Origin: a virus
DNA: 37,771 nucleotides
Direction: 5' to 3' (one strand)
Virus record (IMG/VR): IMGVR_UViG_3300014838_000749
Location: 1-37,771 of that record
Below, piece by piece: positions 2 through 35,714 of the stretch; position 1 is the stretch's first letter, and the number at the start of each line of letters is the position of its first letter. The notes beneath the pieces were generated by a model. The model saw only the letters and a list, made by a program, of their open reading frames with translations, had not been told where the DNA came from and made no database searches. Both the position numbers and the translations under genes were made by a program.

Positions 2-3000
2 ATGCTGTTTGATATCCAACAGCATGGTAAGAAACCGATCGATTTCAATACAACCCCTTACTCTAATAGACGAGCACTACTAGAGCAGATAGCGAAATAT
101 CTTCCACGGAATAAGTTCCACCTTGCTCCGCAGGTTGAAGGCCCAGAGGCTATTAAGAAACTTCAACAGCGAGTAGCATCTGGCGCGGACCCTCTAACTA
201 ATGAAGGTGTTGTAATACATCCACCAACAGGTAAGCCTATCAAGGTCAAGAATACAGACGAGTACGACGCCCTTATCACTGGTACGTTTCCAGGGCAGGG
301 TAGGCGTGCTGGTACTATTGGTGGACTAACTTATGCGCACCCTGATAAACCAGGTGTAACTGTTGGAAAGGTTGGAACTGGTTTTAATGATGAGCTGTTG
401 AAACTAATAGCATCCGATCCGACTTCGTATATTGGTAGGACGGCTCGTTTAAGATCACAAGAGAAATTACCTAGCGGTGCGCTAAGAGCCCCGAGCTTCT
501 TAGGTTTGCATGAGGATATATCACCGGTTAAGACAGCTGAACTAACACCACTACGAGGCGCGCTATTAGAAAAGCAGGCGGCTGGGGCGAATATTCGTAG
601 GATACTTAAGTTGCTAGCAAACCAAAAGCTGCTCGCCACACATCCCATTGGTGGCAATGCGCAGGTGCAGTCATTGGCAGAGTTTCTTGGCCAACATCCA
701 TTTAATACGGCGGTTAAGGCACTAACTAAGCCAAGCGCGATGGCGGCGCTTAAGCGGAAGTTAATACTACAGGCCAACGCTATTGAGGAATATAAATTCT
801 TACACCCAGAATTGAGTCGTGCTGCGTATGGACAACCTATGCCGCAGTCGCCACTTATGTCCATGGCGCGTTTGCACGATTTGGGCGGTAAGAGGCTTTT
901 TGATGCACTTTATAGTAAAAGCAAACCAATTGTAGAAAAGCCTGATGAGCTATTTACGTGGGGTATACCTTATAAACCATTATTGATTCCATGGCAGCCT
1001 TTGGGTAAAGGGAATAAAGGGTCTTCTAGTGAACTTCTAAAGCTTATTGCACCGAACTTTCCACAAGTATCATTTTCTGAGCATACACCAGTAGCAACTC
1101 CGGGTCTTGATATGCTTGGGGCACAGAAAGTACTACGGCAATTAGTTCCTAACCGAAAAGCACCTATGCAGGTAATTAAATCCGAAGTATTAAAAACCTT
1201 ACCTGTTGATGTAGAAAATTATGCCTATAGAGGTGGCGGTATGGACGGTAAGAGCCCGGTATTTGATGTATCTAAACATATTTTACCGCCTAGTAATGAG
1301 CGGGCATGGATAAGCGGATATCCAGATGTTGCAGCTGGTTACCTTAAAGATGTAAAGGTAGAAGAAGGCGCTACCCCGGTATTCTGGCAAGTTAATACTA
1401 AGCCAATTGATGAAGCGGTTAAGCGTATGCCTGGTTCCGGTGTTGCCACTCCGTTTTTCCATCCGCACCTCGCGAAAGATACAACGCATCTTCCAAGCTG
1501 GCTTGGTAAGTACAGGAATGAACTTGAAACACTTGGCCCGAATGGGTTTGAATTAGGCTCCGGTATACGTAATTGGATTCGCTCTGCGATACTTAACCGT
1601 CGTATGAGCGGTATAGATAATCCGTTTAAAGCAGTCGCTGGAAAAAATCAGGGTTGGGCAGCGCGACCATTTTACGAACGTGTTATTAGACCAGCACTGC
1701 TAGATAGCTCGAAACTAATAAATAATGTTAGCGTCGGCTTGCCGGGCGTGAAAGATACGCTCGGCGCTATACCTAAGTACTTTGCCCAAATTAGTAAATC
1801 GGGTGAATCTTTAGAAGAAAATGATCCGCTATTAGAAAAGCAGGCAGCTGGGGCGAATATCAGTAGGCTGCTAAAAATTCTAGCTAGCCCAAGTTTACGT
1901 AAATCACTTATTGGTGATTTAGAAGCTTCTAAGGGAGTTAATGAGGGCGGCCGTTATGCTTTTAATGCAATGTTAGATTTTATGCACAGTCAAAAACCTA
2001 ATAAGGCTGTCAAAGCATTAGGGCAATGGTCCGGTGATGCTCGTCATAACGTTATTAAGGATTTATTCAATAAAGTTAAAATAACTAGCGATGCTTTTAC
2101 CCGAGACCCGCTAAATAGATTTAAAGCATTAGATATGGACAAAGCGAATGAGGCGTATAGCGCTATGAGTGCTATGCAGATGGCTAATGCTCCGCATATG
2201 TTTAAATCGTTATTGAGTAATTTACGACGACCTCCCAGTGATACACCTGCTGTTTCGGATAATAGTATCCTAGGACTATCTCGGGAGTTTGGTAAAAAGT
2301 TCTCTGATATGATGCGTGAATCATCACCGCATGTTCCTTTTTCTGCAAACACACCTGTGAGTGCGCCAGGATTAGATATAAACAAGGCGCAGAGTATTTT
2401 ACGACGAATAGCACCAAATAGAATACCGGCAAAGTTCGTGACTAATGATGTATTAAAGTCATTACCTGTAGATCCGACTACATTCGCGTATAGAGGTGGA
2501 TCATTACCACTAGCTAATCTAAATAACTTGGATTTAAATGTAAAACAGCCTCAACATGATGTTTTGGCTCGAATTATACCTAAAGGCGATAGCCGGGCTT
2601 GGATTTCAGCTTATCCAGATGTGGCGCATGGCTATACAAATTATAGTGTGTCTCCAACTGTGAAAATGTTTTGGCAATTAAATACTAAACCTATAGATGC
2701 TGTAAATAAGCGCTTTGGTAGATCAAATATAGCTACTCCATATTTCCATCCTCATATTGCGAAAGACTCTACTGGGTATCCCGCCTGGTTAAATTATTTT
2801 CGAAAACCGTTGAGCAATACTAATAGTTTGGCTAGCAAGTTGCTAACATTTACTAATATGGAGAATCCATTTGTTCGTAATGCGGGTAAAGTAGATTGGG
2901 GTTCTAGACCTTTTTATGAGCGTGTTGTTAAACCAGACTTACTACCCGAATCTAATAAACTTATAAATAAAACGTTTATTGGTATGCCTCATCAATTGCA

Positions 3001-6000
3001 AAAAGAAGAGAGTGCGGGCTATTCGCTACTATTTCCTAAGTATTGGGCGCAGATGAGCAAATCTGGTTCAACATTAGAAGTGGAAGATCCGCTATTAGAA
3101 AAGCAGGCGGCTGGGGCGAATATCAGTAGATTAGCAAAGTTTCTAGCTAGTCCAAAATTGTTAAAGGAATTAGAGAGCAGTGCGTTAACTTCCCGATGGT
3201 TTAAACCTTATATGTTTGGACCCGCATTACACGACGTATCACTTACAGATTTATCAAAGTTTGTAAAAGCTAACCCAATAGCTAACACACGGTTACTTAA
3301 TCAATTTGCTAATTCTAGCAAAATTAAGGCCCCAGGTATTGCACCAAATATTACAACTATATTTCCACAGATAGCTAAATGGGACGATCCTAAACAGGTG
3401 GATTCAGCTACTGCCCATTTAGTTAATAGCGTTAAAGAGTTTATACACGGTCTACGGTTAACATTAAATGATACCGGTTATAGTAACACACATAAGCTAT
3501 CGGTTTCTTTTTCTAAAGATACACCAGTAGTAAATCCTGGTTTGGATATCAACTCAGCGCATAAATTACTGCGCCAGATAGTACCACATCGTAAGTTACC
3601 TGTTAAATTTGTCCCAGATGCTGTAATAGATAACCTACCAGTAGATCCGGCTAAATATGCTTATCGAGGGCAGCCATTAAATGTGATGCACGGTGATTCT
3701 AATTTTATGCATTCCTTCGTGAATGCTGGTGCTAAAGGAAGCGATCAGCCTTACAGTGATATTACGCGTCAAATAATTAGCCCTGGCCATACACGTGCTT
3801 GGGTTAGTGCTTATAACGATATTGCTAAAGCATACTCTGGCGAAAAGGCAGTAGGTGGTGAAGGTTTTAATGTGCTGGCTCCGGCCATATGGCAGTTAAA
3901 TACACCAGCAATGCGTGAAGGTGTTGGTACGCCATTTTTCCATAAGCACGTAGCGGTCGATACAAGTCGTTATCCAGCTTGGTTACAGTATCTTAAAGGT
4001 CCATTAAGCACTAATATTATAGGTAAACCGATTCATGCTCTAGCAAAATTGTTCGGTCAAGCGAACCCGTTTGTGCAAGCAGCAGGTCGAAGTGAATGGG
4101 GCGATCGTCCGTTCTACGAGCGCGTTATTCGGCCAGCAACAATGGACCCCGAAAAATTAATTCGTAACACATTTATTGGTCTACCTAATGTATCAGATCG
4201 ACCTGGTTATTGGGCTCAAATTAGTAAATCGGGTGAATCTTTAGAAGAAAATGATCCGCTTCTAATCAAAGAAGCACTCAACCCCAAAACTGTGCTTAAC
4301 GTAGCTAGTCAGTTTGCTAATAAAGTTAATGCAGGCAAATGGATTCCATCGGCAGCAGCAGAGAGACTTGGGCTAACTATGCCAGCTACAAGGCTACTAA
4401 GGTTTGCTAATAAGACACAGCAGTGGATACCAGGTGCTCTTAAGCGTAATTTTGCTGCCATGCAAGCAGGCGAGCACGCAGCGCAATTACCTCGAACTAT
4501 GCCAAGTATTCGCAATAGGTTATTTGGCATGCAAGATGATGTCGTAAAACATATCACCGAGAAAGGCTTTGGTATACCTGCTGAGTCTGTAAATGTTCAA
4601 ATATTTCCAGATGCGCGCGGTGCGGGTGCTTGGATTCCTGATATGAAATGGGAACGTGGTCAGGCTCTTATTGGTGATACGTGGCCAGTAATACTTCATG
4701 AACTTGGACATGCTGCTACGTTAGGTGGTGATCTCAAAGGTTTCGTATCAAAAGTAGTAAAGCAACCTAGTACAGCTAAAGATACTTTTGGTTACGAATT
4801 ATTAGCACGTCTATCCGCCGGGCGTGCAGCTCGTAATTTAGCAGGAACGGCACTTCCTGCGCCAAGCATGGGTAAATTACAAAATGCATGGGAGCCAGCG
4901 ATGAATACGTACCGGCTTGATATATTACAGAAATGGTTAAAGCAGTTTACTGAGTCTGCTGGTAGTCCTGAAACCTGGGGAAAGTCTTTAGGTGACACTG
5001 TAAATAACTTCCCAGCAAGCGTACAACGTGCTTTTCCGAATATATATGACCAAGTTAAACATGCTCCGATACCTGAATGGCTAACCAAGGTATCTTTTGA
5101 GGAAGATCCTTTGCTAGTCAAGGAAGCTTTAAACCCCAAAAAAGTGTTAAATGTAGCTTCTCAATTTGCTAACAAAGTAAATGCAGGTAAGTGGGTCCCA
5201 TCAGCAGTATCCTCTCGGCTTGGTCTAACAATGCCAGCAGAAAGGTTAATGCGATTTGCTAATAAGACACAAAACTGGATACCCGGCGCATCCAACAGGA
5301 TTATAAATAAACTTCCTACTATAGCCAATGAAACTGTTAATGCATTACCTGATAAAATGCCTTTCAAATCTGTAATGGGTAACATAGCCGAAAAGGGTTT
5401 TGGTTTACCTGCTAATCAAATAAAGTTCAATCAGGTGCCTGAGTTAATGCAGTCTAATTGGCTCCCAGTCGCAGAAGGTGGTACAGCACCACTTGGTCAA
5501 GTTAGCACAGTATCGAGTTGGCCGGTTGCGTTACATGAATTAGGTCATGCGCAAACGTTGCAACGACACTTACCAGCATTTAATGCTAATCACGGCATGG
5601 GGGGCTTTCTTGGCGAGCTTCAACATGATAGCATTACTGGAAATTTGCGACCAAGGTGGTGGTCGGAGATGGCTGCTAATAGGGCCGCCGGTGCTGGATC
5701 TAGACAATTAATAAATACTGGTTTAAATGCACCACCTACAAATATATTAACTCAATACTGGCATCCGGCATTAGATACCTATCGGTTACGTATTATGCGG
5801 GAATGGTTAAGCAAATATCGCTTTGCGAATAGAGATAGTGATCCATATATGTGGGGAAGGGGTTTAAATACTGCGGGTAAGAATTTTCCGGCGTGGGTTC
5901 GGCGTTCCTTTCCTTCAATAGCACAAGAAGGTTTCGGTCTTGGCGCTAAGCCTAACTGGATAACCAAGGTATCTTTTGAGGAAGATCCTTTGCTAGTCAA

Positions 6001-6784
6001 GGAAGCAGTCAGTGCGTGGCGTGCCCCAGAGATATTAGCATCACTTGCACGTAGATTTGGCTCTTCCACACCAGGCTATTTATCCGGACCTAATGTATAT
6101 GCTCCGATAGCTAGTTTGAAGCATGTAATAGGTAATGCTTTACAGACAGGTGCGAAAAAACTACCAGAAGCCAGTGAGCAGATGCTGATCCATAATAATG
6201 CTACAGCGAAAGCGTTGTCTAGGTTACCGGGGGCTTATATAGTTGAAGGCGAGACTAACAAAGTAAATCCTAATATGCTTCGTTTATTTCACGGCGCAAA
6301 TAATCCGCTTGGTACTGAGCTACCACACATTAAACAACCAACCACACAAACTGTTCTCTCACATTTCTCACCTAGTAGCGATGTAGGTAAACATTATGGG
6401 TCGTTATATAAGTCCATAGTGGATATACCGAAATCGATTGGTTATCCTATGTTCGAGAAAAATGATGCACGCTATGCACTTACTGATCTGTTTGGTAGTG
6501 GTGATAAAGGTGATGTAGGTGATGCATATAGGCGAATTGTAAATATGTTGGGATTGGATAGATTAAGTTTAAGCGATAAGCTTCAACAATTTGGTCAAGC
6601 ACTAAAAGCATCACCTAGTAAAATTGACCCTGTTAGAGATTTAGCAAGTACTTATGAGACTATAGTACCGTCTGGTGTAGGTGAACGTTCATATTTTACT
6701 GGCACGAATAAGCCTGTTGATATAACTAAGATACCAGTTGATATACTGCGTAAGTGGTGGACTGGTATGACTGCAGGTGCTTAA
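2..6784 (+). CDS. Modular polyprotein: DNA ligase C-terminal half plus tandem effector-like modules (5' partial)
   Basis: The reading frame is open from the window edge, so the true start is probably upstream. Residues 1-183 match the C-terminal half of an ATP-dependent DNA ligase: a FDIQQHGKK segment, motif IV EGVVI, motif V KPIKVK, then the OB-fold features GRRAGTIGGL, VGKVGTGFNDE and SGALRAPSFLGL. The catalytic lysine would lie upstream. Then come modules at residues 188-607, 610-1028 and 1031-1417 (mutually homologous, with YRG and RAWISxYPDxAxGY motifs resembling ADP-ribosyltransferases), 1420-1701 and 1704-1994 (homologous, each with HELGH, typical of zinc metallopeptidases), and 1997-2260 (a different module with LFHG and SHFSPSSDVGKHYG, again ART-like). 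Each module opens with LLEKQAAGANI or DPLLxKEA. A processed, possibly virion-packaged polyprotein is inferred. The ligase call is firm, the ART call tentative. Confidence 0.85.
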   Translation: MLFDIQQHGKKPIDFNTTPYSNRRALLEQIAKYLPRNKFHLAPQVEGPEAIKKLQQRVASGADPLTNEGVVIHPPTGKPIKVKNTDEYDALITGTFPGQGRRAGTIGGLTYAHPDKPGVTVGKVGTGFNDELLKLIASDPTSYIGRTARLRSQEKLPSGALRAPSFLGLHEDISPVKTAELTPLRGALLEKQAAGANIRRILKLLANQKLLATHPIGGNAQVQSLAEFLGQHPFNTAVKALTKPSAMAALKRKLILQANAIEEYKFLHPELSRAAYGQPMPQSPLMSMARLHDLGGKRLFDALYSKSKPIVEKPDELFTWGIPYKPLLIPWQPLGKGNKGSSSELLKLIAPNFPQVSFSEHTPVATPGLDMLGAQKVLRQLVPNRKAPMQVIKSEVLKTLPVDVENYAYRGGGMDGKSPVFDVSKHILPPSNERAWISGYPDVAAGYLKDVKVEEGATPVFWQVNTKPIDEAVKRMPGSGVATPFFHPHLAKDTTHLPSWLGKYRNELETLGPNGFELGSGIRNWIRSAILNRRMSGIDNPFKAVAGKNQGWAARPFYERVIRPALLDSSKLINNVSVGLPGVKDTLGAIPKYFAQISKSGESLEENDPLLEKQAAGANISRLLKILASPSLRKSLIGDLEASKGVNEGGRYAFNAMLDFMHSQKPNKAVKALGQWSGDARHNVIKDLFNKVKITSDAFTRDPLNRFKALDMDKANEAYSAMSAMQMANAPHMFKSLLSNLRRPPSDTPAVSDNSILGLSREFGKKFSDMMRESSPHVPFSANTPVSAPGLDINKAQSILRRIAPNRIPAKFVTNDVLKSLPVDPTTFAYRGGSLPLANLNNLDLNVKQPQHDVLARIIPKGDSRAWISAYPDVAHGYTNYSVSPTVKMFWQLNTKPIDAVNKRFGRSNIATPYFHPHIAKDSTGYPAWLNYFRKPLSNTNSLASKLLTFTNMENPFVRNAGKVDWGSRPFYERVVKPDLLPESNKLINKTFIGMPHQLQKEESAGYSLLFPKYWAQMSKSGSTLEVEDPLLEKQAAGANISRLAKFLASPKLLKELESSALTSRWFKPYMFGPALHDVSLTDLSKFVKANPIANTRLLNQFANSSKIKAPGIAPNITTIFPQIAKWDDPKQVDSATAHLVNSVKEFIHGLRLTLNDTGYSNTHKLSVSFSKDTPVVNPGLDINSAHKLLRQIVPHRKLPVKFVPDAVIDNLPVDPAKYAYRGQPLNVMHGDSNFMHSFVNAGAKGSDQPYSDITRQIISPGHTRAWVSAYNDIAKAYSGEKAVGGEGFNVLAPAIWQLNTPAMREGVGTPFFHKHVAVDTSRYPAWLQYLKGPLSTNIIGKPIHALAKLFGQANPFVQAAGRSEWGDRPFYERVIRPATMDPEKLIRNTFIGLPNVSDRPGYWAQISKSGESLEENDPLLIKEALNPKTVLNVASQFANKVNAGKWIPSAAAERLGLTMPATRLLRFANKTQQWIPGALKRNFAAMQAGEHAAQLPRTMPSIRNRLFGMQDDVVKHITEKGFGIPAESVNVQIFPDARGAGAWIPDMKWERGQALIGDTWPVILHELGHAATLGGDLKGFVSKVVKQPSTAKDTFGYELLARLSAGRAARNLAGTALPAPSMGKLQNAWEPAMNTYRLDILQKWLKQFTESAGSPETWGKSLGDTVNNFPASVQRAFPNIYDQVKHAPIPEWLTKVSFEEDPLLVKEALNPKKVLNVASQFANKVNAGKWVPSAVSSRLGLTMPAERLMRFANKTQNWIPGASNRIINKLPTIANETVNALPDKMPFKSVMGNIAEKGFGLPANQIKFNQVPELMQSNWLPVAEGGTAPLGQVSTVSSWPVALHELGHAQTLQRHLPAFNANHGMGGFLGELQHDSITGNLRPRWWSEMAANRAAGAGSRQLINTGLNAPPTNILTQYWHPALDTYRLRIMREWLSKYRFANRDSDPYMWGRGLNTAGKNFPAWVRRSFPSIAQEGFGLGAKPNWITKVSFEEDPLLVKEAVSAWRAPEILASLARRFGSSTPGYLSGPNVYAPIASLKHVIGNALQTGAKKLPEASEQMLIHNNATAKALSRLPGAYIVEGETNKVNPNMLRLFHGANNPLGTELPHIKQPTTQTVLSHFSPSSDVGKHYGSLYKSIVDIPKSIGYPMFEKNDARYALTDLFGSGDKGDVGDAYRRIVNMLGLDRLSLSDKLQQFGQALKASPSKIDPVRDLASTYETIVPSGVGERSYFTGTNKPVDITKIPVDILRKWWTGMTAGA
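561..594 (+). repeat. 34-nt exact linker repeat (second copy 3090-3123; near copy 1827-1860)
   Basis: The DNA encoding LLEKQAAGAN is identical at 561-594 and 3090-3123, and has one mismatch at 1827-1860. These are the N-terminal linkers of the three ART-like modules. Confidence 0.9.
563..4258 (+). repeat. Three tandem copies of a ~400-residue ART-like module
   Basis: Copies start at 563, 1829 and 3092. Each has in order: the LLEKQAAGANI linker, a variable helical stretch, a VSFSxxTPVxxPGLDI-like segment, YAYRG (R410 in copy 1), RAWISGYPDVAAGY (434-447 in copy 1) or its equivalent, FWQLNTKP, TPFFHPHxAxDT, and a C-terminal xRPFYERVxxP segment before an ISKSGESLEENDPLL-type tail. The order YRG then aromatic-[IV]-S-x-Y-x-D-x-A fits the R and S positions of R-S-E ADP-ribosyltransferases. 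No certain catalytic glutamate was identified. Confidence 0.8.
1787..1830 (+). repeat. 44-nt exact linker repeat (second copy 4217-4260)
   Basis: The 44 nt encoding ISKSGESLEENDP plus flanking bases are identical at 1787-1830 and 4217-4260, at the ends of modules 1 and 3. The modules themselves differ at many silent and replacement sites, so the linker looks recently exchanged or homogenised. Confidence 0.9.
4259..5989 (+). repeat. Two tandem copies of an HELGH metallopeptidase-like module
   Basis: Copies start at 4259 and 5111. Both begin with the KEALNPKxVLNVASQFANK segment, continue through KWxPSA, LGLTMPAxRLxRFANKTQ and GFGxPA, and carry WPVxLHELGHAxTL (H1566-H1570 and H1845-H1849 of the polyprotein). 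Both end with a YRLxIxxxWL helix and the WxTKVSFEEDPLLVKEA tail. HExxH is the zinc-binding and catalytic signature of metallopeptidases; the third ligand was not identified. The middle parts have diverged strongly between copies. Confidence 0.75.
5082..5127 (+). repeat. 46-nt exact linker repeat (second copy 5961-6006)
   Basis: The DNA encoding TKVSFEEDPLLVKEA is identical at 5082-5127 and 5961-6006, at the ends of the two HELGH modules, although what follows (module 5 versus module 6) is unrelated. Confidence 0.9.
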
Positions 6785-11227: not shown

Positions 11228-12556
11228 ATGGATGAACAAACTAAAACTACGACATATAAAACGGTTAATGGTTTAAAGCTCGGTCGTAAACGATCAGCTC
11301 AGCCAGCACCATTACATTTTAAGAACTACCTAATCGGTAGTGCGCTACCTACGCCGCCAGCGACATGTGATTATACTGCTGCGGCCATGACATCCCTCAA
11401 TAATATCTTTTTGAATGATCAGCTAGGTGATTGTGTTATTGCCGGTGCTGAACATTATTTAGGTGTTATTACAGGTAACGCCGGTAATCTGTTTATTCCG
11501 ACGAACGCGCAAGTAATTGCTGAATATGGTTCTATTGGTGGGTACAACCCTAATAATCCATTCTCGGATCAGGGCTGCGATATGCAGACCGCTATGAACT
11601 ATTATGTATCCACTGGCTTTGCTAATAACACGAAGCTTACTAGTTGGATAGCTGTAGATCCCACTAATCAGACTGAACTACAATTAGCCATCTATCTATT
11701 TGAGGGTTTGTATTTTGGTATGGAGCTACCGAACGCATGGCTCAATGCCGATATGCCACAAGCTAGTGGCTTCACGTGGGATGTGGCTGGTAATCCTGAT
11801 CCTGAAAATGGTCACTGTGTAACTGGTGTTGGTTACAACGCTAATGGCATTGTAATTGATACGTGGGGTATGCTTGGTACTTTAACTTGGGCCGCTATTG
11901 CAGAGTATGCATCTGCCAACAGTAACGGCGAGTTATACATTCTGATCTCGCAGGGCGCATTGAATAAGACTACTAATTTGGCCCCAAATGGTTTTAACTG
12001 GTCTCAGCTTGTAGCTGATTTTGATGCACTAGGTGGTAGTATTACTCCTGTAACACCAACGACTACCGCTACAACTATAAGCTTAGCGTCCTCGGTTAAT
12101 CCATCTAATGTTGGACAAGCTACGACATTAAGCTCTAATGTCAAACCGGCTACTGGAACGGCTGTACCTACCGGTACGGTAACGTTTAATACTGTAAGCG
12201 GTGTTAATGCCACTAGCACCTTAGATAATACTGGGCAAACTAGCGTTAATGTTAGCAATCTGCCCCAAGGATCTAATGTGCTGACTGCTGCCTATAGCGG
12301 TGATGCTAACTTCACTGGAAGTATTTCGCCGGCTTTGACTCAGGTTGTAAATCCAACTATTCCGCCACCGACGCCAACCAGCGTAACTGTTGCTTTTGGT
12401 GTCTATGAATTAACAATCACTGCTATAAGCACTGATCCGACTCCTGTTATTACTCCTCCTTCTCCTATCACTGTTACAATTGGTAATCAAACATTGACGA
12501 TTACTGGTACCGTGATTTCTTCTGGTAAGACCAAGGATGGTCACAATGGATACTAA
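11228..12556 (+). CDS. C39-like cysteine peptidase domain with Ig-like domain
   Basis: 442 residues. Residues about 50-260 resemble papain-like C39-type peptidases: NDQLGDCVIAGAEHY holds a candidate nucleophile C69, DPENGHCVTGVGYN gives H196, and IVIDTWG gives D211, in the expected Cys-His-Asp order. Residues about 275-380 form a bacterial Ig-like domain of the VPTGTVTF...LTAAYSGDANFTGS type, often found on secreted or surface proteins. A final beta-rich tail follows. No signal peptide is visible, so export would be through lysis or virion assembly. It may cut a host surface protein or a virion partner. The next gene begins inside its last codons. Confidence 0.75.
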   Translation: MDEQTKTTTYKTVNGLKLGRKRSAQPAPLHFKNYLIGSALPTPPATCDYTAAAMTSLNNIFLNDQLGDCVIAGAEHYLGVITGNAGNLFIPTNAQVIAEYGSIGGYNPNNPFSDQGCDMQTAMNYYVSTGFANNTKLTSWIAVDPTNQTELQLAIYLFEGLYFGMELPNAWLNADMPQASGFTWDVAGNPDPENGHCVTGVGYNANGIVIDTWGMLGTLTWAAIAEYASANSNGELYILISQGALNKTTNLAPNGFNWSQLVADFDALGGSITPVTPTTTATTISLASSVNPSNVGQATTLSSNVKPATGTAVPTGTVTFNTVSGVNATSTLDNTGQTSVNVSNLPQGSNVLTAAYSGDANFTGSISPALTQVVNPTIPPPTPTSVTVAFGVYELTITAISTDPTPVITPPSPITVTIGNQTLTITGTVISSGKTKDGHNGY

Positions 12557-12806: not shown

Positions 12807-13178
12807 ATGCCTAAACTAACTCTTGATCAGGCTGCTATCAGCGTATTCCTAATCGCATTAGGTCAACTGGGTGTTGCTATTGGTCAGCATAATGCAAGCG
12901 CTGCGGCTGGTGCTTTTACAGCTCTTGTAGCTTCGTGTTTGCCCGCACTGATTCCAGCTATACGTAAGAATTTTACTCCTGCTGCTGTGGCTGCTGCTGT
13001 CAGTGCATTTACTACATTCCTCACTGTAGTTCTACCGGCAGTAATTCCGGCTGTAGGTAAGTGGTTTACATCTCCTGATGTAGTAGTACCTCCGGTTGAA
13101 CCTGTTGTACCAGTAGAACCAGCTCCCGTATCGCCTCCGGATAAACCTCCGGCTGTGCCACCTGTTCCAACTAAATAA
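12807..13178 (+). CDS. Membrane protein, holin-like in layout
   Basis: 123 residues with hydrophobic segments at about 8-27, 33-52 and 62-85 (Ala-rich), followed by a Pro/Val repeat tail of ~35 residues (VVPPVEPVVPVEPAPV). A small protein with two to three helices next to a peptidase fits a holin, but holins usually end in a charged tail and this one is Pro-rich. It is the last gene before a strong terminator. Function uncertain. Confidence 0.65.
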   Translation: MPKLTLDQAAISVFLIALGQLGVAIGQHNASAAAGAFTALVASCLPALIPAIRKNFTPAAVAAAVSAFTTFLTVVLPAVIPAVGKWFTSPDVVVPPVEPVVPVEPAPVSPPDKPPAVPPVPTK

Positions 13179-13202
13179 TCGGTTCTTGGTTTTAACAACT
13201 AA

Positions 13203-13230
13203 ACAGCGTCCTTTTTAGGGCGCTGTTTTT
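13203..13230 (+). terminator. Rho-independent terminator
   Basis: A 10-bp stem ACAGCGTCCT/AGGGCGCTGT (one T-G pair), TTTT loop, then a T5 run. It closes the 10309-13178 unit. Confidence 0.92.
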
Positions 13231-13247
13231 ATTTACCTGGGGATAAT

Positions 13248-13469
13248 ATGCTCAAACGACGTTATGATGTTGAAACGACGCATTACGCGGTTGCCCTTAT
13301 CGATACGCATGTTGGGCGTGACCATAGTGAAACACTACACCCAGATGCGAAAGGTGTAGTAATACATTGGCGCGGACATCATACCAATGGAAAGTGGTAC
13401 GTAGATCCGCTTTTAATTTACAATGCTAATCGTGTAAAAGATTTACTCAATCGAAGCTATGAGGTGTAG
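13248..13469 (+). CDS. Small unknown protein
   Basis: 73 residues, starting after GGGGATA 18 nt beyond a terminator, so this is probably the first gene of a new transcript. Rich in His and Arg (VIHWRGHHTNGKWYVDPLLI). The C-terminal helix (NANRVKDLLNRSYEV) might be a shortened form of the helix that ends the downstream paralogs. No family was recognised. Confidence 0.6.
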   Translation: MLKRRYDVETTHYAVALIDTHVGRDHSETLHPDAKGVVIHWRGHHTNGKWYVDPLLIYNANRVKDLLNRSYEV

Positions 13470-13471
13470 CA

Positions 13472-13804
13472 ATGCAGAGACCAAGTACAGATACCGAAAT
13501 AAAAGTAGGGACACAATTCGTTGTCACACGGCGTCATCAGCCATTTGAGAGTAGTTTTTACAGAGAGGAAGGGGAAGTTGTTACGGCTGCAAGTTGTCGT
13601 GGTTCAGACAGTAAAACGTGGTGCGATGGGAGATCGCTCCCTAACGGCGAGGAAGGGTTCTTGGCTACTGTGGGGATAGTTGCCGCTATGAATTACAACG
13701 CAGTGCTTTGGTCGCCATGCATTTTCCTTGCGCCTCTCTACTCGCAAGTCGTTGACAACACGCAAACTCTAGCCCAGTTTATTAAGTTGTTAGCAGCTAT
13801 GTGA
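13472..13804 (+). CDS. Member of local small-protein array
   Basis: 110 residues, ATG 2 nt after the preceding stop with GAGGTG upstream. It follows the pattern of the next genes: a start like IKVGTQFVV, a beta-rich middle, and a C-terminal helix ending in a LLAxM motif (QFIKLLAAM). The opening resembles a small SH3/KOW-like barrel. Two extra cysteines occur in the middle (SCRGSDSKTWC). Function unknown; shared ancestry with the downstream genes is likely but remote. Confidence 0.6.
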   Translation: MQRPSTDTEIKVGTQFVVTRRHQPFESSFYREEGEVVTAASCRGSDSKTWCDGRSLPNGEEGFLATVGIVAAMNYNAVLWSPCIFLAPLYSQVVDNTQTLAQFIKLLAAM

Positions 13805-13838
13805 TCTTATCGGACATTCAAATACCAGGAGTACAGTC

Positions 13839-14228
13839 ATGACCGCAGCAGAGGCTAAGTTAGTGCAGCCAGGCGATGAGTTCACAATCAACTTCGCGGC
13901 GTTCGTGCCTCCCATGAATTCGCCGTACAAGTATAAAACAGCAGCAAATAAGATTGTTCTTATACATGACGGCGATATAATCGTCGCGCAAGATCCGCCA
14001 TATCCTACCGATGCTCCGATGGAACTATTACGATCTCAATTTCCTGTTGATTGGGCCGGCGACCCATACTCTCAACTCTTGATACCAATTGGGGTACTGA
14101 CACCGCTAAAATCGGCAAGGTTAACATCAGTTGCCGCAAAATGTAAGTGTAATATTATGGTTACCGGCTGCATCTGTGGCGTGTTTGCAGCAGAACAACT
14201 AACTAAGGAGCACGCTGATGGCACCTGA
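13839..14228 (+). CDS. Array member with C-terminal cysteine cluster
   Basis: 129 residues, AGGAGT upstream. It begins VQPGDEFTIN like its neighbours (PGD near the N-terminus), but ends with a CKCN...CICG cluster of four cysteines that could bind a metal instead of the LLAxL helix. The stop overlaps the next start by 11 nt. Function unknown. Confidence 0.6.
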   Translation: MTAAEAKLVQPGDEFTINFAAFVPPMNSPYKYKTAANKIVLIHDGDIIVAQDPPYPTDAPMELLRSQFPVDWAGDPYSQLLIPIGVLTPLKSARLTSVAAKCKCNIMVTGCICGVFAAEQLTKEHADGT

Positions 14229-14496
14229 AGATATTTCTGTTGGGCAGCGATTAAGAGTGATAGCTAAAACACCGTCTGTAAGTTATGACGCGCCGCCTGA
14301 GTATGGCTACCGAAAATTACAAATCGATGATATTATCACTGTTGCTGGGCTAGTACCGACAGCTAGCGGGATGACAGTTAGGTACAATATACCTAGCGGT
14401 ACATGTAAAATATTTTTAGCTCATTTGGCCCCGGTTGATATGACTCCGGATTTTGATCGGTTCATAGCGTTACTTTCTAGCCTTGATGTCACTTAA
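14218..14496 (+). CDS. Array member, small beta-barrel-like protein
   Basis: 92 residues. AAGGAG lies 7 nt upstream of the ATG, which overlaps the previous gene. Layout: SVGQRLRVI, a beta-rich middle with IDDIITVAGL and MTVRYNI, then FDRFIALLSSL at the C-terminus. This matches the other array members in order and length. Confidence 0.65.
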   Translation: MAPEDISVGQRLRVIAKTPSVSYDAPPEYGYRKLQIDDIITVAGLVPTASGMTVRYNIPSGTCKIFLAHLAPVDMTPDFDRFIALLSSLDVT

Positions 14497-14533
14497 GCCT
14501 GCGCACACCAGTGCAGTGACAGGAGCTTTACGG

Positions 14534-14782
14534 ATGATTGATTTAAACACTACAAAGCCGGGTGATACAGTGATCACTAATCAGAACCTGGGGGGTAGTT
14601 ATTCGTTGGGTACGTTGTGTACGGTCGAAAAAATAGAAATTAATCGTACCAATAGCGCATGCTCGCAGGTTCATATATCCGGCGAAGTTGGCTTTTACTG
14701 GGCATTTAGATTCGATAACATGTCTAGTGATCCGAGCAAAAACTGGGCAAATTTGTTATCGATTTTAGCAAGGGTACCATGA
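14534..14782 (+). CDS. Array member, small beta-barrel-like protein
   Basis: 82 residues. ATG at 14534 is chosen because AGGAG lies 8 nt upstream; an in-frame upstream start at 14483 would overlap the previous gene without a good ribosome site. Pattern: TTKPGDTVIT, LGTLCTVEKIEI, VGFYWAFRFD, and a final NLLSILARV helix. The stop overlaps the next start (ATGA). Confidence 0.65.
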   Translation: MIDLNTTKPGDTVITNQNLGGSYSLGTLCTVEKIEINRTNSACSQVHISGEVGFYWAFRFDNMSSDPSKNWANLLSILARVP

Positions 14783-17675: not shown

Positions 17676-18848
17676 ATGCTCGTAGTGGAACGCCACCATA
17701 TCGCCGGAAACGATACCATCATCCGGCTCTGCTCAAACTCAAGGGAACTGTACAACCAGTGCAACTTCCTTATGCGTCACGCTTGGTTCGGCGGACATCC
17801 ACTGCCCGACATCAACATCCTGACTACTGCTGTCAAGGATTTGGACTGCTTCAAGAGCCTGCACAACACAAAGACCGCCAAGCAAACAGTCAGGAAATGC
17901 TTGACCGACTGGACGAACTTCAAGAAGGCACTCAACGCCTACAAGAAAGACCCAAGCAAGTTCATCAAGCGACCGAAGCCGCCGTACTACAAGGATAAAC
18001 TGGCTCAGGTCATTTTCTACAACGAAACCATCAAGGGAGGACAGAACAAGAAGAAGGCGAAGCCCAACACCATTACGCCGACCAATGACTGCTTCGGCAT
18101 CAACAGCACCAGAGACTACAAGCAAGTAATCCTAACTCCGAAGCGGTTCGGGTTCGTGGTGGACGTTCAATATGAACAACCCGCAGAGCCGAAATCTAAG
18201 GCGAAAGGCATTGCGTGCGTTGACATCGGGTTGAACAACCTATGTGCGATAACTACAGACCAGACAACGACTTCCATACTGGTCAACGGTCGCATTTGCA
18301 AGAGTATCAACCAGAAATTCAACAAGCACAACACTAAGCGGGAAAGCCAGAAAAGGTACTTCCGCCTTGAAAACTACTTCCACCACGTTTCCAAATTCGT
18401 CGTTGCTCATTGCCTCAAGAACGGTGTTGGCAAGATCATTGTGGGTAAAAATGACGGGTGGAAAATAAGGATGAACTTGGGCAAGAAGACCAACCAGAAC
18501 TTCCAATACATTCCGTTCTGGCGATTGCTGGAGAAGATCAGGTACAAGGCAATCCTCGCTGGGTTAGAGGTCGTGTTCACAGAGGAAGCGTACACCAGTC
18601 AGGCGAGTTTCCTTGACCGTGATCCGTTGCCTGCTTATGAGAAAGGTGTGTCTCATACTTTCTCAGGCAAGCGTGTGAAGCGTGGCTTGTATCGAGCCGC
18701 CGATGGTCGTGAAGTTAATGCCGATGTGAACGGGAGTTGCAACATCGGACGTAAAGTAATCGGGAACGAGGACTTGTTCCTCCGACTCGATAAGAGCCTT
18801 GCCGCAAGGCCAGTACGGATCAACCCATTGAAAGCATTCTGCGTATAA
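17676..18848 (+). CDS. tnpB: TnpB-family RNA-guided nuclease
   Basis: 390 residues. TnpB proteins of IS200/IS605 elements are RuvC-type nucleases guided by an RNA from the element's right end and help keep the element at its site. The RuvC motifs are visible: CVDIGLNNL (D183), EEAYTSQASFLDRD (E303/E304) and NADVNGSCNI (D350). The usual glutamate of RuvC-II is missing (IIVGKNDGWK), so the EE of EEAYTSQ is the likely substitute, as in TnpB groups with a rearranged catalytic site. There is no CxxC zinc finger. The N-terminal 160 residues are basic and fit RNA/DNA binding (KQTVRKCLTDWTNFKKAL). Confidence 0.88.
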   Translation: MLVVERHHIAGNDTIIRLCSNSRELYNQCNFLMRHAWFGGHPLPDINILTTAVKDLDCFKSLHNTKTAKQTVRKCLTDWTNFKKALNAYKKDPSKFIKRPKPPYYKDKLAQVIFYNETIKGGQNKKKAKPNTITPTNDCFGINSTRDYKQVILTPKRFGFVVDVQYEQPAEPKSKAKGIACVDIGLNNLCAITTDQTTTSILVNGRICKSINQKFNKHNTKRESQKRYFRLENYFHHVSKFVVAHCLKNGVGKIIVGKNDGWKIRMNLGKKTNQNFQYIPFWRLLEKIRYKAILAGLEVVFTEEAYTSQASFLDRDPLPAYEKGVSHTFSGKRVKRGLYRAADGREVNADVNGSCNIGRKVIGNEDLFLRLDKSLAARPVRINPLKAFCV

Positions 18849-18938: not shown

Positions 18939-19304
18939 ATGGCTGAGGAAAAGAAGATTCGCGAGGTAGGTAGTAATGTATGGTGTCTAGCGAACGAGAC
19001 AACTGATGGAATGACTCGGTCATATCCAGTAGCTTGTAGCGTCTTGGCACACCGGCATTCTAAATCTGATGGTGATCAATATCAGATCAGATTTAACGAT
19101 GGTATATTCTGGGTCAGACCTGAAACTTTATTTGATTCAGAGCGATCTGCTTGGGAGCGGTATCATAAACAGCTCTCTACAGAACATGAGCAGCTTGTGG
19201 CTACTATTCGATTCGTTGAATCTGAGTACGCCAAAGCAGCCTGCGAAATTAGTCCACGTATGGATGTGATTCCATTCCCACCTGACTACTGGAAGAAAGG
19301 GTGA
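18939..19304 (+). CDS. Unknown protein, paralog of the gene at 17187
   Basis: 121 residues. ATG at 18939 is preferred over 18930 because GGAGG ends 9 nt before it and touches the earlier ATG. The start (KIREVGSNVWCLANE) parallels the gene at 17187; the rest is beta-rich (YQIRFNDGIFWVRPE) then helical (SAWERYHKQLSTEHEQLVAT). The sigma-like gene begins 2 nt after its stop. Function unknown. Confidence 0.65.
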   Translation: MAEEKKIREVGSNVWCLANETTDGMTRSYPVACSVLAHRHSKSDGDQYQIRFNDGIFWVRPETLFDSERSAWERYHKQLSTEHEQLVATIRFVESEYAKAACEISPRMDVIPFPPDYWKKG

Positions 19305-19306
19305 CC

Positions 19307-19921
19307 ATGTCGCACGAAGCTCTCACAGCGGAACAATCCGCTGAAGTTGCTGCTAATATCGAGTTGGCCTATAAATTTGCACGGCGGTATAGATTTTCGT
19401 ATCTTACCAAAGATGAAGTTGAAGCCGCAGCAATGTATGGGCTGATCATTGCAGTACAAACGTATCGCCACACTGATTGCATGTTGAGCACAGTTGCTTG
19501 GCGCCGCATGCGAAGTGCAGCGATACGAGATAATACAGCGGCGCGCTGCGGCGGTCGCATACCTTTAGGTACCGCTCTGAATGTCCTATTTTCGAAATAC
19601 CCCAATGCCAAAGCTAAGGCAGCTATCTATGCCAAGCGAACGCCATATACAGAAGTGACCGTTACTAATTCAACAGAAGAAACCGGATCAGGTTTAGCTG
19701 CAAAGCGGGAACTGCGTGCATTGGTGCGCGCTGAGATAAACAAGCTGCCAATTGTAGATGCGATGTTAACCACTCGTCGGTGGTTATACGAGCGGTCCCT
19801 CAAGGATATAGCCAAAGAAGCTGGTATATCCAGGCAACGTGTTGCACAGCGTGTCGATCGAGCGAAACTACAGCTGCAAGATCAAATTCTTGCACGTATA
19901 AATGTCAGGAGTAGTATATGA
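19307..19921 (+). CDS. Sigma-70-like RNA polymerase sigma factor
   Basis: 204 residues from ATG at 19307 (a GTG at 19301 overlaps the ribosome site). Residues about 25-85 match sigma region 2: a LTKDEVEAAAMYGLIIAVQ helix, YRHTDCMLSTVAWRRMR and AAIRDN. Residues about 160-192 match region 4, a helix-turn-helix SLKDIAKEAGISRQRVAQRV followed by a dimer-like helix. Region 3 is short. It would direct RNA polymerase to promoters, either the host's enzyme or the phage polymerase encoded at 27411. The downstream gene overlaps its stop (ATGA). Confidence 0.8.
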   Translation: MSHEALTAEQSAEVAANIELAYKFARRYRFSYLTKDEVEAAAMYGLIIAVQTYRHTDCMLSTVAWRRMRSAAIRDNTAARCGGRIPLGTALNVLFSKYPNAKAKAAIYAKRTPYTEVTVTNSTEETGSGLAAKRELRALVRAEINKLPIVDAMLTTRRWLYERSLKDIAKEAGISRQRVAQRVDRAKLQLQDQILARINVRSSI

Positions 19922-27410: not shown

Positions 27411-30400
27411 ATGCCAGATCCTTTGCTCGGTAACACCGATCCACTTGGTGTTACTCCATTACCGAATACATCCCCCGACCAGGGCTCTGCTCCCATTATG
27501 GGGGCAGAATCCCCTGGCCGTTCTTTTTTAGATGCTGGAGCTACTCGTAAGGCTATTTATGATAGGACATTGAAGCAAGTTGCATCGCTTAAACCAATGT
27601 CAAATCAGAAGTACACTCTAGCGCTAAAAGATATCAATTATGTTGATCCAGAAGACTTCTCTCTAGCTGAACAGAAGAAAGCAGTTCTTGAAGGTAGAAC
27701 TCTAGCACGAAGACTTAGAGGCACTTGGGATTTAACGGATAATCTTACTGGCAAATCAGTTTCAAGCAAAACGAGTACCCTCGCTGCAGTTCCGTACTAT
27801 ACCAATAGAGGTACGTTTATTCTGAACGGAAGTGATTACACACTAGCCAGTCAACTTAGGTTAAAGCCTGGGGTATATACAAGAAGAAAGGAGAACTCTG
27901 CAACTGAATCGCATTTCAACATTTTACCCGGGCAGGGTCTCTCACATCGTATTGGATTAGACCCCGAGTCCGGTGTATTCCATATGCAAGTTGGACAGTC
28001 AAAGTTATCACTAGTCCCTATCCTTCGCGCAATGGGAGTTAAGGATCAACAACTAAGAGAAGCTTGGGGTAATTTATACGGGGCTAATGCTTATAAAGCT
28101 GATGCATCTGCTGTAGGTAAATTGCATGCACGGCTTATTCGTGGGCCAAATAAAGCTACTGATGAAGGCGGTAAAGCCCAGCAACTCAGCGAAGCTTTAT
28201 CTAAGATGCCCCTTGATCCAGAAGTAACAAAGAGTACCCTCGGCGCTGCCTATGACCACATCTCACCTGATGTATATCTAGCAGCTACTAAGAAGTTACT
28301 AGGGTTAACTAGAGGAGAGGTTGAACCAGATGATAGAGATCATCTGGCTTATATGACGGTACATGGCCCTGAAGATTTGATCTCAGAGAGAGTAAGTAAA
28401 GATCAGTCTATGTTAAGGAAGGCATTGTGGAAGGCCACCATGAAAGGTGATCTTTCGGGGATGCCTACTGGACTATTTACTAAGTCGTTGCAGGCTGCAA
28501 TTATGGGGAGTGGGCTCGGAAATCCTTCAGAAGAGGTGAATCCGACGCAAGTACTTGAACAGATGGGACGTATATCAAGAATGGGTGTTGGGGGCATTCC
28601 TTGTAACTCCTTTGATACCATGGTGTTATGTCAAATCGGTTGGAAGTACTGGCCTGATGTTACCATGGATGATGAACTGGCGTGTAGTATTAATGGTCGG
28701 CTTGAATTCCATAAACCAATTGCATTGCATAGTGCTGATTACACCGGCGATATGTACGTGGGCGAGTCACAACGATTAGCGTATTGTGTAACACCCGACC
28801 ATAGGATGTGGACAACACATCAGTCAGGATCTAGCAAAAATCCAGGTAATTATATACCATGGCATTTTATTACAGCCTCGAATGTACATGGTAAATCTGT
28901 TAAGCATTTGATAACGGCCGGTAGTTACACTGGCGGTAATGATATTCCGTACATGGTGATTAACGTTAATCACCATGTACAATATCCATTTGACTTGTGG
29001 GCCGAGTTTCTTGGAACATATCTTGCAGATGGTAGCACGTACTATAATGAGGCTAAATCTAAGTATTCAATCGAAATAGCTAAGCGTAGATCTTGTAATC
29101 CAGATGAATATGATTTTATTGCGAAGCTACTCGATAAATTAGGTATCACCTGGACTTACTCTGGTGACAAACGATTCAATTTCTCAAGTAAATATCTAGC
29201 CCTGTATTTAAAACAATTTGGTACAGCACATTATAAGTATGTGCCTGATTATATTAAACAAGCTAGTCCCTATATTCGCCGTAAATTCTTCGATGCTATT
29301 ACTACAATGGATTGTGGTGGTAAGCGAGACGGTTATAGACGATACTCATCAGCATCGCAGCAACTTTGTGAAGACGTAGGTTTCATTGCTATAACACTTG
29401 GTTACTCTGTTACCTACAAAACTAGACAACGTAAAGATAAAAAGAAGCATAACGAATACCATGTGGTGATTCGAGAGGCCGATACAGGTTTTATTGAATC
29501 ACGTTACTGCAAAAATAACTATAGAACCATTGAATACAATAACAAAGTCTATTGTGCTACTGTACCTGGAGGCTTGTTATTTACTAGATATAAAGGCAAA
29601 ACATTATGGAGTGGTAACTCAATTGATGCAATCCCGAGTGAAAGTCGGTCAGTGCAGCCTTCTCATTTAGGTTTTGTTGACCCGATTTCGACCCCAGAAA
29701 ATATGCGCGCGGGTGTTGATTCACGCGTGTCTAATACCGCTATCAAGGGACACGACAATAAGCTTTACTCTAAGTTCATTGATGTAAAGACAGGTGAGGA
29801 GAAGATACTTAATTCCGGTAATCTTCTTAATTCTACAATTGCGTTTCCAAATGAACTTGAGAAGGGTGGGAGATTCGTCGCTGCAATGATCGGAGGGAAG
29901 ATTAAATATGTTCCAAGGGAACAAGTTGATTATACACTTCCGTCCATGGAGGATGCATTCGGACCAATATCTAATTTGGTTCCTATGAAGTCAGCAGTAA
30001 AAGGTCAGAGATTAAGTATGGGTGCCCGCATGAGTTTAGCGGGTAACTCGCACGTGCAAATCAGGCGTGCGGATAATAGTTTGTATAGGGGTAGTATTGC
30101 GGAATATGACTGGCAATCAGGTGATACCGCATGCTCGGTAGATAAGACTACACATATAGTAGCATGGAAGCCGGTATGGGCGAAAATTACACATTTAAAT
30201 GTATTGCCGATGTATCGTATCAAGTTGCGTAGCGGGAGAGAAGTAGATGCAACTATGGATCACAGCTTTGTAACTATGGGTGATGATGGTTCGCTGGTAA
30301 AGATTGCGACACAAGATTTACAAGTAGGTAGCGCAATACCATATATCGGCCACACACCAGAAATTGTCAACCCAGAACTTACACACTGGTCTGTACCAGC

Positions 30401-33400
30401 TGGTAATAAACATAACGCAAATCCGGCTACTGATCTACGTTTGGATTTTGATACAGGTTGGATTCATGGCTTATACGCAGCTGAAGGGCATATATGTATA
30501 GGATCTACCACATTCGCGGCGCTAACTCCACAGATTCGTAGGCGGGTAATTGATTTTTTTGCTGGTTATCATATACACGCAATGGAGATAGCTGGTCGAC
30601 CCGATAAGCAACTTGATCGTGCCGTTGTTAATTGGAAGCAATTTAGCATAAAGCTGGGCAGTGAGTTTGGTCAAGGATCTTACAATAAAAGATTACCAGA
30701 TTGGGTATTTACAGCGCCGATTGAGTATAGGCGCGGTTTACTAGCTGGTTATATGGCAGGAGATGGTGTTTTTGCAGTGCATCGAGCACAGGTTGCTGTG
30801 TCTGGTGGATCACGTAGTATTACATTGCGTAATGATTTATGTGATTTATGCGCTACCCTTAACATTGCTACTACAACTTATGAATCTATTGTAAATACAG
30901 GTCCTAAGCATTCCACCGTTACACAGTATACTTTTCGTATTCGCTCTGATGATGTACATAAACTACCAACACTAACACATCCTAGAAAGGATGGATTACT
31001 CAGAACATGTAAGTGGTCTGGGAAGAGATCTAGCGACTGGATACCAATGTACCCGTTGTTACGCGAAACTGTGAGAAAACTAACTAAAAGGAATGATGCT
31101 AATCGGGCACGTACTTATGCGAATTGTCATACACGTTCATCTTTACAATCACTACTTGGTGATACCGGTGAGTCACGAGCGCACCGTTGGATTAGATCCG
31201 CTGTGCGTTGGGATAAAATTGAAGCTATTCAGGAATTAAATGCTGCTGATTATATAAATGTATATGATCTTGATCTGGAAGATAATGTCTTTGTATGTAA
31301 TGGTGGTATTATTGTTCATAACACTACACAGGCTCTTCCATTGGTGGGAGCTGAAACTCCATATGTACAATCTGGAATTCCAGGATCAAACAATGAAAGT
31401 TACGAAGAATTATACGGAGAGCACCTCGGTGCTATAAAGACCGGACCTGGTGGATATGTAAAAAATGTAACACCAGATGGTATAGAGATTGAAGGACCGG
31501 ATGGAAAGATTGAGAAGCATGAGTTAGCGGTTAACATGCCTAATAACCGTAAAACAATGTTTCATCAAACACCAATGGTTAAGGTTGGACAACTACTTAA
31601 TCCTGGGCAGTTAATTGCAAGGTCGAATTATACGAATGAGAAGGGAAGTGTGGCGTTAGGAAAGAATATTAAAATAGCAATGGTACCGGGCTTTGGTGAG
31701 CATTCTAATTACGAAGATGCTTGGATTATTTCTGAGGGGGCAGCTAAGAAGTTTACATCTGAACACGCTTATCAGCATTCTGTTGATGCTGAAGAGGGCA
31801 CTCATTTTGGTAAGAAGACTTATATATCTGCTTTTCCATCGAAGTATCCCCGGGCTATACTGGATAACTTTGATGAAGAGGGTGTGATTAAACCAGGCAC
31901 AATTGTGCAGCCGGATGATCCTTTAATATTGGCTGTTAGAACTAAAGATCCGAATAGGTCACAGGTCTATCGCGGCCGTGGACCGAGTTTTAGTGATAAG
32001 ACTGAAACCTGGGATCATCATACTGAAGGGATTGTAACTGATATTGCGCACACAAAGGATGGACCGAAGGTAGTGGTGAAGACACATGCACCGGCTGAGG
32101 TAGGGGATAAGCTTTGTTTATCCGAGGATCACGATGTATTAACAAGTCGTGGGTGGAAACCGATAGCAACTATAGCATTTGATGACAAGATTTGTTGTTT
32201 AATAGATGGCTCTATTGTCTATCAATATCCGGTAGCTATTCATCGATATCCTACTGGTGGTTTAATGTATCACATTAAATCACAGCAGGTAGATTTATTG
32301 GTTACTGCAAAACATCGTATGTATGTACAACAGCGCGATAATGACAAATTTGAATTATTACCTGCCGAGTCAATTTTTGGTGCATACGTACATTATAAAA
32401 AGAACGGTAAGTGGATCGGACGTTCGCCAAAATATGTACGACTTCCAAGTTATTCGCAGAAGATAAGTAGATCCTATGCATCAGTAGTAACTATGTGCGG
32501 TATTAAACTCAGTACGATTACGTTTATGAAATTATTGGGCGCATTCTTATCTGAAGGATATTGTCTTAAGAATAAACATGGGCAAGGGCAAGGCATCGCT
32601 ATATGTCAAACGAAGCCAGGCGGCCGAAAAATATTTGAGACCGAGTTAATGCCAGAGCTAACCGCCGCTGGTTTACATTGTAGAATCAAATCTGACAGAT
32701 ATGTCATAAGCTCTAAAGCTCTATATATATATTTCAAACGTTTCGGTTATTGCAATGAAAAATATATTCCAGCACGTTTATTCAACTACTCACCTAGGTT
32801 GCTTCAACATCTGTTTCAATGGTTAAATTGGGGCGATTCGTATAGCAAGGGGAGCCGCATTGAGTATTACACATCGTCCCAGCGCCTTGCTGATGATTAT
32901 CAACGGTTATGTCTACATCTTGGTAAAGCCGCTAACATTAGTAAAACTGACCGAGCGGCCTGGAAAGCAATAAAAGGTCATACCTATTACTGTAATGATT
33001 ACTATCGCGTGAGCGTTATTAACAATAAACTTACGCCATCGGTTAATTATGCTAAAGTATTTCGTCCTGATCGAACTACTAAGCAGGAAGAAACATGGAT
33101 AGAGAATTATGATCGGGCAGTATATTGTCTATCTGTCCCGGGTGAAGTATTTTATGTTCGTCGTAATGGCAAACCTGTATGGACTGGTAATTCAAATCGA
33201 TTCGGCGGAAAAGGATTAATTGCGGATATTGTACCTGATGAGCACATGCCCAAAGACGAGGAAGGTAACACCATCGATTTATGCTTTAACCCCGCTGGCG
33301 TGATTACTCGGACGAATCCGGCAGCAGCTTTAGAATTTGCATTAGGTAAAATTGCGGCTAAAACAGGCAAACCTTATAAGATTCAAGACTTCAAGGACAT

Positions 33401-35714: not shown

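Follow-up and report, generated by a model that had tools for sequence, protein, structure and literature searches.

The locus described here raises the question of whether a phage RNA polymerase gene can carry four inteins in its catalytic core and still yield a continuous subunit, and, if so, how they came to be gathered in a single gene. The window, by which we mean the whole stretch of 37,771 nucleotides that was analysed (positions 1 to 37,771 of IMG/VR virus record IMGVR_UViG_3300014838_000749), holds an open reading frame (ORF) of 2767 codons on its plus strand (27411..35714), in which RNA polymerase beta is joined to N-terminal beta' and four inserts interrupt the chain; all parts of the gene given below lie on that strand. 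Judging from sequence and from structural models, it is very probable that four inteins, unrelated to one another or distantly so, have invaded this gene, each at its own site, and each is expected to excise itself.

The predicted spliced polymerase chain and its junctions

In profile searches the ORF matched beta and N-terminal beta' discontinuously, the stretches between them matching intein and LAGLIDADG profiles. Excision of residues 398-736, 875-1304, 1569-1927 and 2089-2242, which are exactly the ranges and lengths (339, 430, 359 and 154 residues) given in a first-pass annotation of this DNA, leaves a chain of 1485 residues that is colinear with Salmonella phage Arash gp206 and Vibrio phage D69 over 95-97%, and that shares 47% identity with the relatives L007/L009 (labels of this form denote the related contigs), which have zero inserts. 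Extein 1 (27411..28601) supplies beta residues 1-397 of this chain and is followed by extein 2 (29619..30032), extein 3 (31323..32114), extein 4 (33192..33674) and extein 5 (34137..35711), the last of which completes beta, continues into N-terminal beta' with its catalytic ADFDGD motif (TIGR02386, PF00623) and is 47-57% identical to relatives. The earlier description of one fused RNA polymerase chain thus stands as to the fusion, and has to be narrowed as to beta', which is covered only N-terminally (positions 156-534 of the 1147 in TIGR02386). The Arash chain terminates at the same place as the spliced chain, and Arash has a second gene, annotated as RNA polymerase beta subunit, 4.8 kb downstream, a separate gene for the remaining beta' (beta'C); a search with this downstream Arash gene found no beta'C match within the 37.8 kb window, which is a fragment of a virus record. 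The closest relatives of the polymerase chain are large phage contigs, and its beta/beta' homology to cellular subunits was seen both by profiles and by alignment to Thermus beta. Going by its sequence, the gene supplies the phage's own multi-subunit RNA polymerase, probably one of the mReC kind (Weinheimer and Aylward 2020, PMC7481178), with its large subunit, made up of beta and N-terminal beta'.

Insertion sites are numbered here by the last spliced-chain residue before the insert, and a slash marks the junction. Intein 1 (28602..29618) lies at site 397 (GGIP/S), intein 2 (30033..31322) at site 535 (GARM/T), intein 3 (32115..33191) at site 799 (GDKL/S) and intein 4 (33675..34136) at site 960 (SHGA/S). 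Eight residues to either side of each junction were compared with 74 phage relatives that lack inteins and keep a single frame throughout; the alignment was ungapped in 67 of the 74 at site 397 and in all 74 at sites 535, 799 and 960, compared to 85% at random positions. The equivalents in Thermus beta are GGLT/R, MGSNM/Q, GDKL/A and AYGA/A, which places site 397 in the fork loop 2 / rif region and site 799 between the two lysines of the GDK...NKG active-site motif. In bacterial polymerases these lysines contact the RNA end and the incoming nucleotide. All four sites therefore fall in the beta part and two adjoin active-site motifs, as the first-pass annotation had proposed together with the restoration of continuous beta sequence upon excision, and alignment to both phage and bacterial chains bears this out. 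The +1 residue is Ser or Thr at each site (S, T, S and S), and a Ser or Thr is also present at this position in 98% of the empty close relatives at sites 397 and 799, in 3% at site 535 and in 13% at site 960.

Such junctions would suit the usual order of splicing, in which intein residue 1 (Cys or Ser) would attack the upstream peptide bond, the downstream +1 Ser or Thr would take the chain over, the last Asn of the intein would cyclise and the exteins would be ligated, giving the continuous 1485-residue subunit. With inserts placed in its catalytic core, the polymerase would presumably stay inactive until all four inteins had left. Splicing, nuclease activity and a need for splicing are what we infer from the sequence, the intein boundaries and blocks, the models of inteins 1 and 4 and the clustering by site that are set out below.

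The placing of all four sites within the catalytic core could also be taken to mean that the inteins are kept, beyond any selfishness, for regulating the polymerase by delayed or conditional maturation; Cys-based chemistry could sense redox state, and regulation by inteins has been argued in the literature for other hosts. We consider this improbable, as most relatives do without inteins. Single-protein scans with the window C-terminal extein, the middle extein or intein 4 gave zero relatives, so alignments were needed and the relatives were gathered by two profile scans of viral contigs, the second of which found 465, of which 80 were kept. No insert is present in 82 of the 107 near-complete chains, from which it appears that the inteins are dispensable, and the pattern of insertion fits homing instead.

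Splicing residues and folds of the four inteins

Blocks A, B, F and G, whose absence would have spoken against an intein, were found in all four inserts as C1 or S1, TxxH, VY(C/D/N) and a terminal Asn followed by Ser or Thr. Intein 1 (339 amino acids) runs from C1 to SGN with TPDH as its block B, intein 2 (430 amino acids) from S1 to VHN with TMDH, intein 3 (359 amino acids) from C1 to TGN with TAKH, and intein 4 (154 amino acids) from C1 to VGN with TRGH. The columns without variation in an alignment of 17 inteins, inteins 1 and 3 among them, include C1, the Thr and His of block B, the block F Cys and the last Asn. Although block F carries a Cys in this family, its invariant C1 led us to reject a class 3 intein, a type marked by a WCT triplet and by the lack of a nucleophile at position 1.

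Profiles and relatives identified each insert separately. Intein 2 matches PF14890 (Intein_splicing, 1.7e-18), the intein part of PRK14898 and TIGR01445, and resembles both PI-PkoII and the intein at site 535 of L033. Intein 3 matches Pfam LAGLIDADG_3 and an intein hidden Markov model (HMM; 1e-109), and from first to last residue it matches inteins of Lak phages, of the ThyX of phage P1201 (whose record is annotated ‘contains hypothetical intein’) and others. For intein 4 the matches are TIGR01443 (3.3e-6), PF07591 (2.9e-6) and a full-length match in a 485 kb uncultured phage, while intein 1 has full-length matches to other phage inteins and same-site relatives in L070 and L124. The matches in unrelated phage genes start and stop precisely at the proposed intein boundaries, and the relatives of inteins 1 and 3 in other host genes have identical ends at 24-29% identity. 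PF14528 matches the chain in two stretches, and two LAGLIDADG motifs lie between blocks B and F in each of inteins 1-3. Profiles, alignment and the intein 1 model thus agree with the first-pass division into three LAGLIDADG inteins and one nuclease-free mini-intein (intein 4). The three nucleases would cut intein-free alleles of the same site in co-infecting phages and so spread their inteins; the mini-intein would have lost its nuclease or never possessed one.

A sequence search of the PDB found no intein match for intein 1 and no match whatever for intein 3, and therefore folding and phage inteins were used instead. The AlphaFold model of intein 1 (17 sequences; pLDDT 89.7) is a Hint domain with a LAGLIDADG nuclease, its best Foldseek matches being TliVMA, PI-SceI, PhoVMA and PI-PfuI, with I-DmoI and I-SceI also matched. 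That of intein 4 (pLDDT 86.9) has a Hint fold with best matches to the Mtu RecA, PhoCDC21-1 and NpuDnaB mini-inteins. The Hint fold is thus assigned by modelling for inteins 1 and 4 and by sequence profiles for inteins 2 and 3.

Some observations weigh against four competent inteins: the penultimate residue of inteins 1, 3 and 4 is Gly and not the usual His, intein 1 has a degenerate second LAGLIDADG motif (FFDAITTMDCG), and the window is a metagenomic fragment whose gene is known from sequence alone. One or more of the inserts might then be decayed, non-splicing inteins, with the polymerase broken or only partly processed, but we regard this as very unlikely, as none of the four lacks an essential splicing residue, the 8.3 kb frame is open throughout, the junction residues are intact and the models of inteins 1 and 4 show complete Hint folds. 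A penultimate Gly is moreover the rule for this intein family in many phages, and is not disabling by itself, because phage inteins are reported to vary often at this position and phage terminase inteins to splice (Kelley et al., PMC5050341). The GC content of the inteins (38-42%) is slightly lower than that of the exteins (43-46%) and is not decisive. The four inserts therefore look splice-competent by sequence, as first described, with all needed terminal residues and blocks in place.

Origin and load of inteins in the polymerase family

In a tree of 24 inteins from the main family, the groups follow the insertion site: 397 (window, L070 and L124; 100/100), 424, 839, 918 and 799 (L033/L036/L058). 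Traced on this tree, the site label changes nine times, which is as few as ten sites allow, and none of 1000 shuffles was as low; the genome label needs 16 changes against 15.4 in shuffles and so shows no clustering. Since the inteins cluster by insertion site and not by genome, the load looks like the result of repeated site-specific homing and not of duplication within the gene. That the four are copies of one intein made inside the gene is hardly credible, as inteins 1 and 3 do belong together in a broad family (25% identity; C1 and a block F Cys) but intein 1 joins its same-site relatives, intein 3 lies apart from it with thymidylate synthase inteins, intein 2 resembles the same-site intein of L033, intein 4 comes from another family, and the tree scatters the window inteins among those of other sites and genes. 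Because intein 3 does not group with the other site-799 inteins (the L033 type; AU p = 0.049), site 799 may have seen two separate invasions; the case is not a firm one, as the tree favours it but the AU value is marginal and the label count fits equally well with 799 as an old site.

Inteins, one or more per chain, are present in about 19 of the 107 near-complete chains, near-identical pairs included, with four in the window and six in L033. In window coordinates the intein sites are 371, 397, 405, 424, 425, 535, 612, 680, 799, 837, 839, 918, 960 and 971, to which are added a split-intein site around 940 and, in L035, one candidate within the DFDGD motif of beta'; overall there are some 15. 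L033 (a 202 kb contig) has its six at 424, 535, 612, 799, 839 and 918. The same genome has a beta'C gene (L147:1359-8105) that holds three inteins, of which the second and third are separated by just nine extein residues (SEPLSQAQL), bringing this phage to nine polymerase inteins, and a 1297-residue ORF (L147:14775-18668), to which no function was assigned, with two more. The L035 candidate (13055-14640) is an in-frame insert of about 510 residues inside DFDGDQM, with an odd N-terminus and no clear junction Cys or Ser. Frame-breaking interruptions near 1100 in L019, L020, L023 and L037 were excluded from the inteins as separations of the beta and beta' genes, and L004 is interrupted by a free-standing homing endonuclease gene. 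L012 has an in-frame TGA at position 12023 amid an otherwise conserved chain (FPEAMSTENR, stop, KLDDDCF), and the in-frame stops of six other relatives lie at or beyond the ends of reading frames.

As relatives carry up to six inteins, this phage polymerase family is, on the sequences gathered here, an intein hotspot. The load of the window had been called very high for one gene; high it is, and unique it is not, since L033 has six and the ribonucleotide reductase of Trichodesmium erythraeum has four (Liu et al. 2003, as cited in PMC1635734). That is the highest published number for one gene that we found in the part of this literature available to us, and the window equals it. In the searchable literature, outside which most subscription journals lie, we found neither a published case of at least five inteins in one gene nor published inteins in a phage RNA polymerase. 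An essential transcription enzyme of large phages thus appears as a hotspot for selfish elements, and orthologues with 0, 1, 2, 4 and 6 inteins form a series in which the tolerance of splicing events, their order and the competition of neighbouring homing nucleases can be asked about.

In three lineages of relatives, SGRYG and then a stop codon come right after the site-799 intein (L017:5800-5840, L036:13290-13330 and L016; L033:11680-11720; L058:9510-9550), whereas the intein-free relatives compared read GRYGDKG, or a close variant, unbroken. The junctions are GGC TGA GGT in L017/L036/L016, GGC TA GGT in L033 and GGT TGAA GGC in L058, with TGA, TAG and TGA as the stops and offsets of 6, 5 and 7 nt. 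If the ribosome hopped from the Gly codon before the stop to the one after it, SGRYGDKG would be restored in each of the three lineages; readthrough, -1 and +1 shifting, respectively, would instead add one residue. A hairpin of 12-13 bp ends at the take-off codon (z -5.1 to -5.7, with no shuffle as stable), and a 38-base stretch of its DNA is identical between L033 and L058 although their inteins are 60% identical in DNA. Past the stop, the frame shows purifying selection (dN 0.23-0.40, dS 1.4-1.6). In T4 gene 60, too, bypassing relies on matched Gly codons together with a stop and a 5' stem loop, and ‘stop hops’ of synthetic origin have been described (PMC5009743). The stop and hairpin are a candidate programmed stop-hop tied to a homing intein, and these relatives offer a rare testable case of short programmed ribosome hopping linked to such an element.

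Near chain position 940, at one conserved site, L126/L127 (L126:9480-9990), L131 (7580-9940) and L134 (9080-9920) have an intein in two parts: an N-half of about 100 residues closes with a stop codon, and the C-half lies in a different frame, with about 2 kb and a further ORF between the two in L131. These are candidate natural split inteins. It is possible, and we put it forward tentatively as the less probable case, that the active centre in this lineage depends on cis-splicing inteins, in some members on trans-splicing split inteins, and on a stop-hop at the GDK site that intein 3 occupies in the window (take-off GGC/GGU, stop, landing GGU/GGC), the hop concerning L017/L036/L016, L033 and L058 and not the window.

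Elsewhere in the window, positions 19301-19921 encode a small sigma-like protein (Sigma70_r4, 3e-6) that may serve the phage polymerase, and 17676-18848 an IS605 OrfB / TnpB-like protein. A 2260-residue ORF (2-6784) reaches the contig end; its first 170 residues resemble the C-terminal part of ATP-dependent DNA ligase, and the rest had no family match.

Comparison with known systems

The mReC polymerases are deep-branching phage beta/beta' proteins from IMG/VR and metagenomes, and the present chains are, judged by beta/beta' homology, probably of the same kind; many members here carry inteins, a word that a text search did not find in PMC7481178. We are highly confident that the four inserts are real inteins, notable for their number and for their host gene, a phage RNA polymerase.

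As far as its citation in PMC1635734 describes it, the Trichodesmium ribonucleotide reductase is alike in having four inteins in one gene and differs in being a cyanobacterial enzyme of nucleotide metabolism. Inteins in RPB2, RPA2 and RPC2 (Goodwin et al. 2006, PMC1635734; giant virus RPB2, PMC3423634) similarly occupy conserved sites near the homologous active centre, fork and hybrid-binding domains included, but they come from eukaryotes and their viruses and not from phages, and the likeness is one of region. The inteins of the Corynebacterium phage P1201 thymidylate synthase, of a mycobacteriophage nucleotidyltransferase and of Lak phages are full-length relatives of inteins 1 and 3 in other host genes. 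The neighbouring MCM inteins of haloarchaea (PMC10643990) also occupy several sites of one gene, and there, at MCM-d, uninvaded alleles lack the nucleophile; a +1 nucleophile that is present in the invaded allele and absent from many uninvaded ones is likewise seen here at sites 535 and 960, although MCM is an archaeal helicase and it is in the MCM system that homing has been measured.
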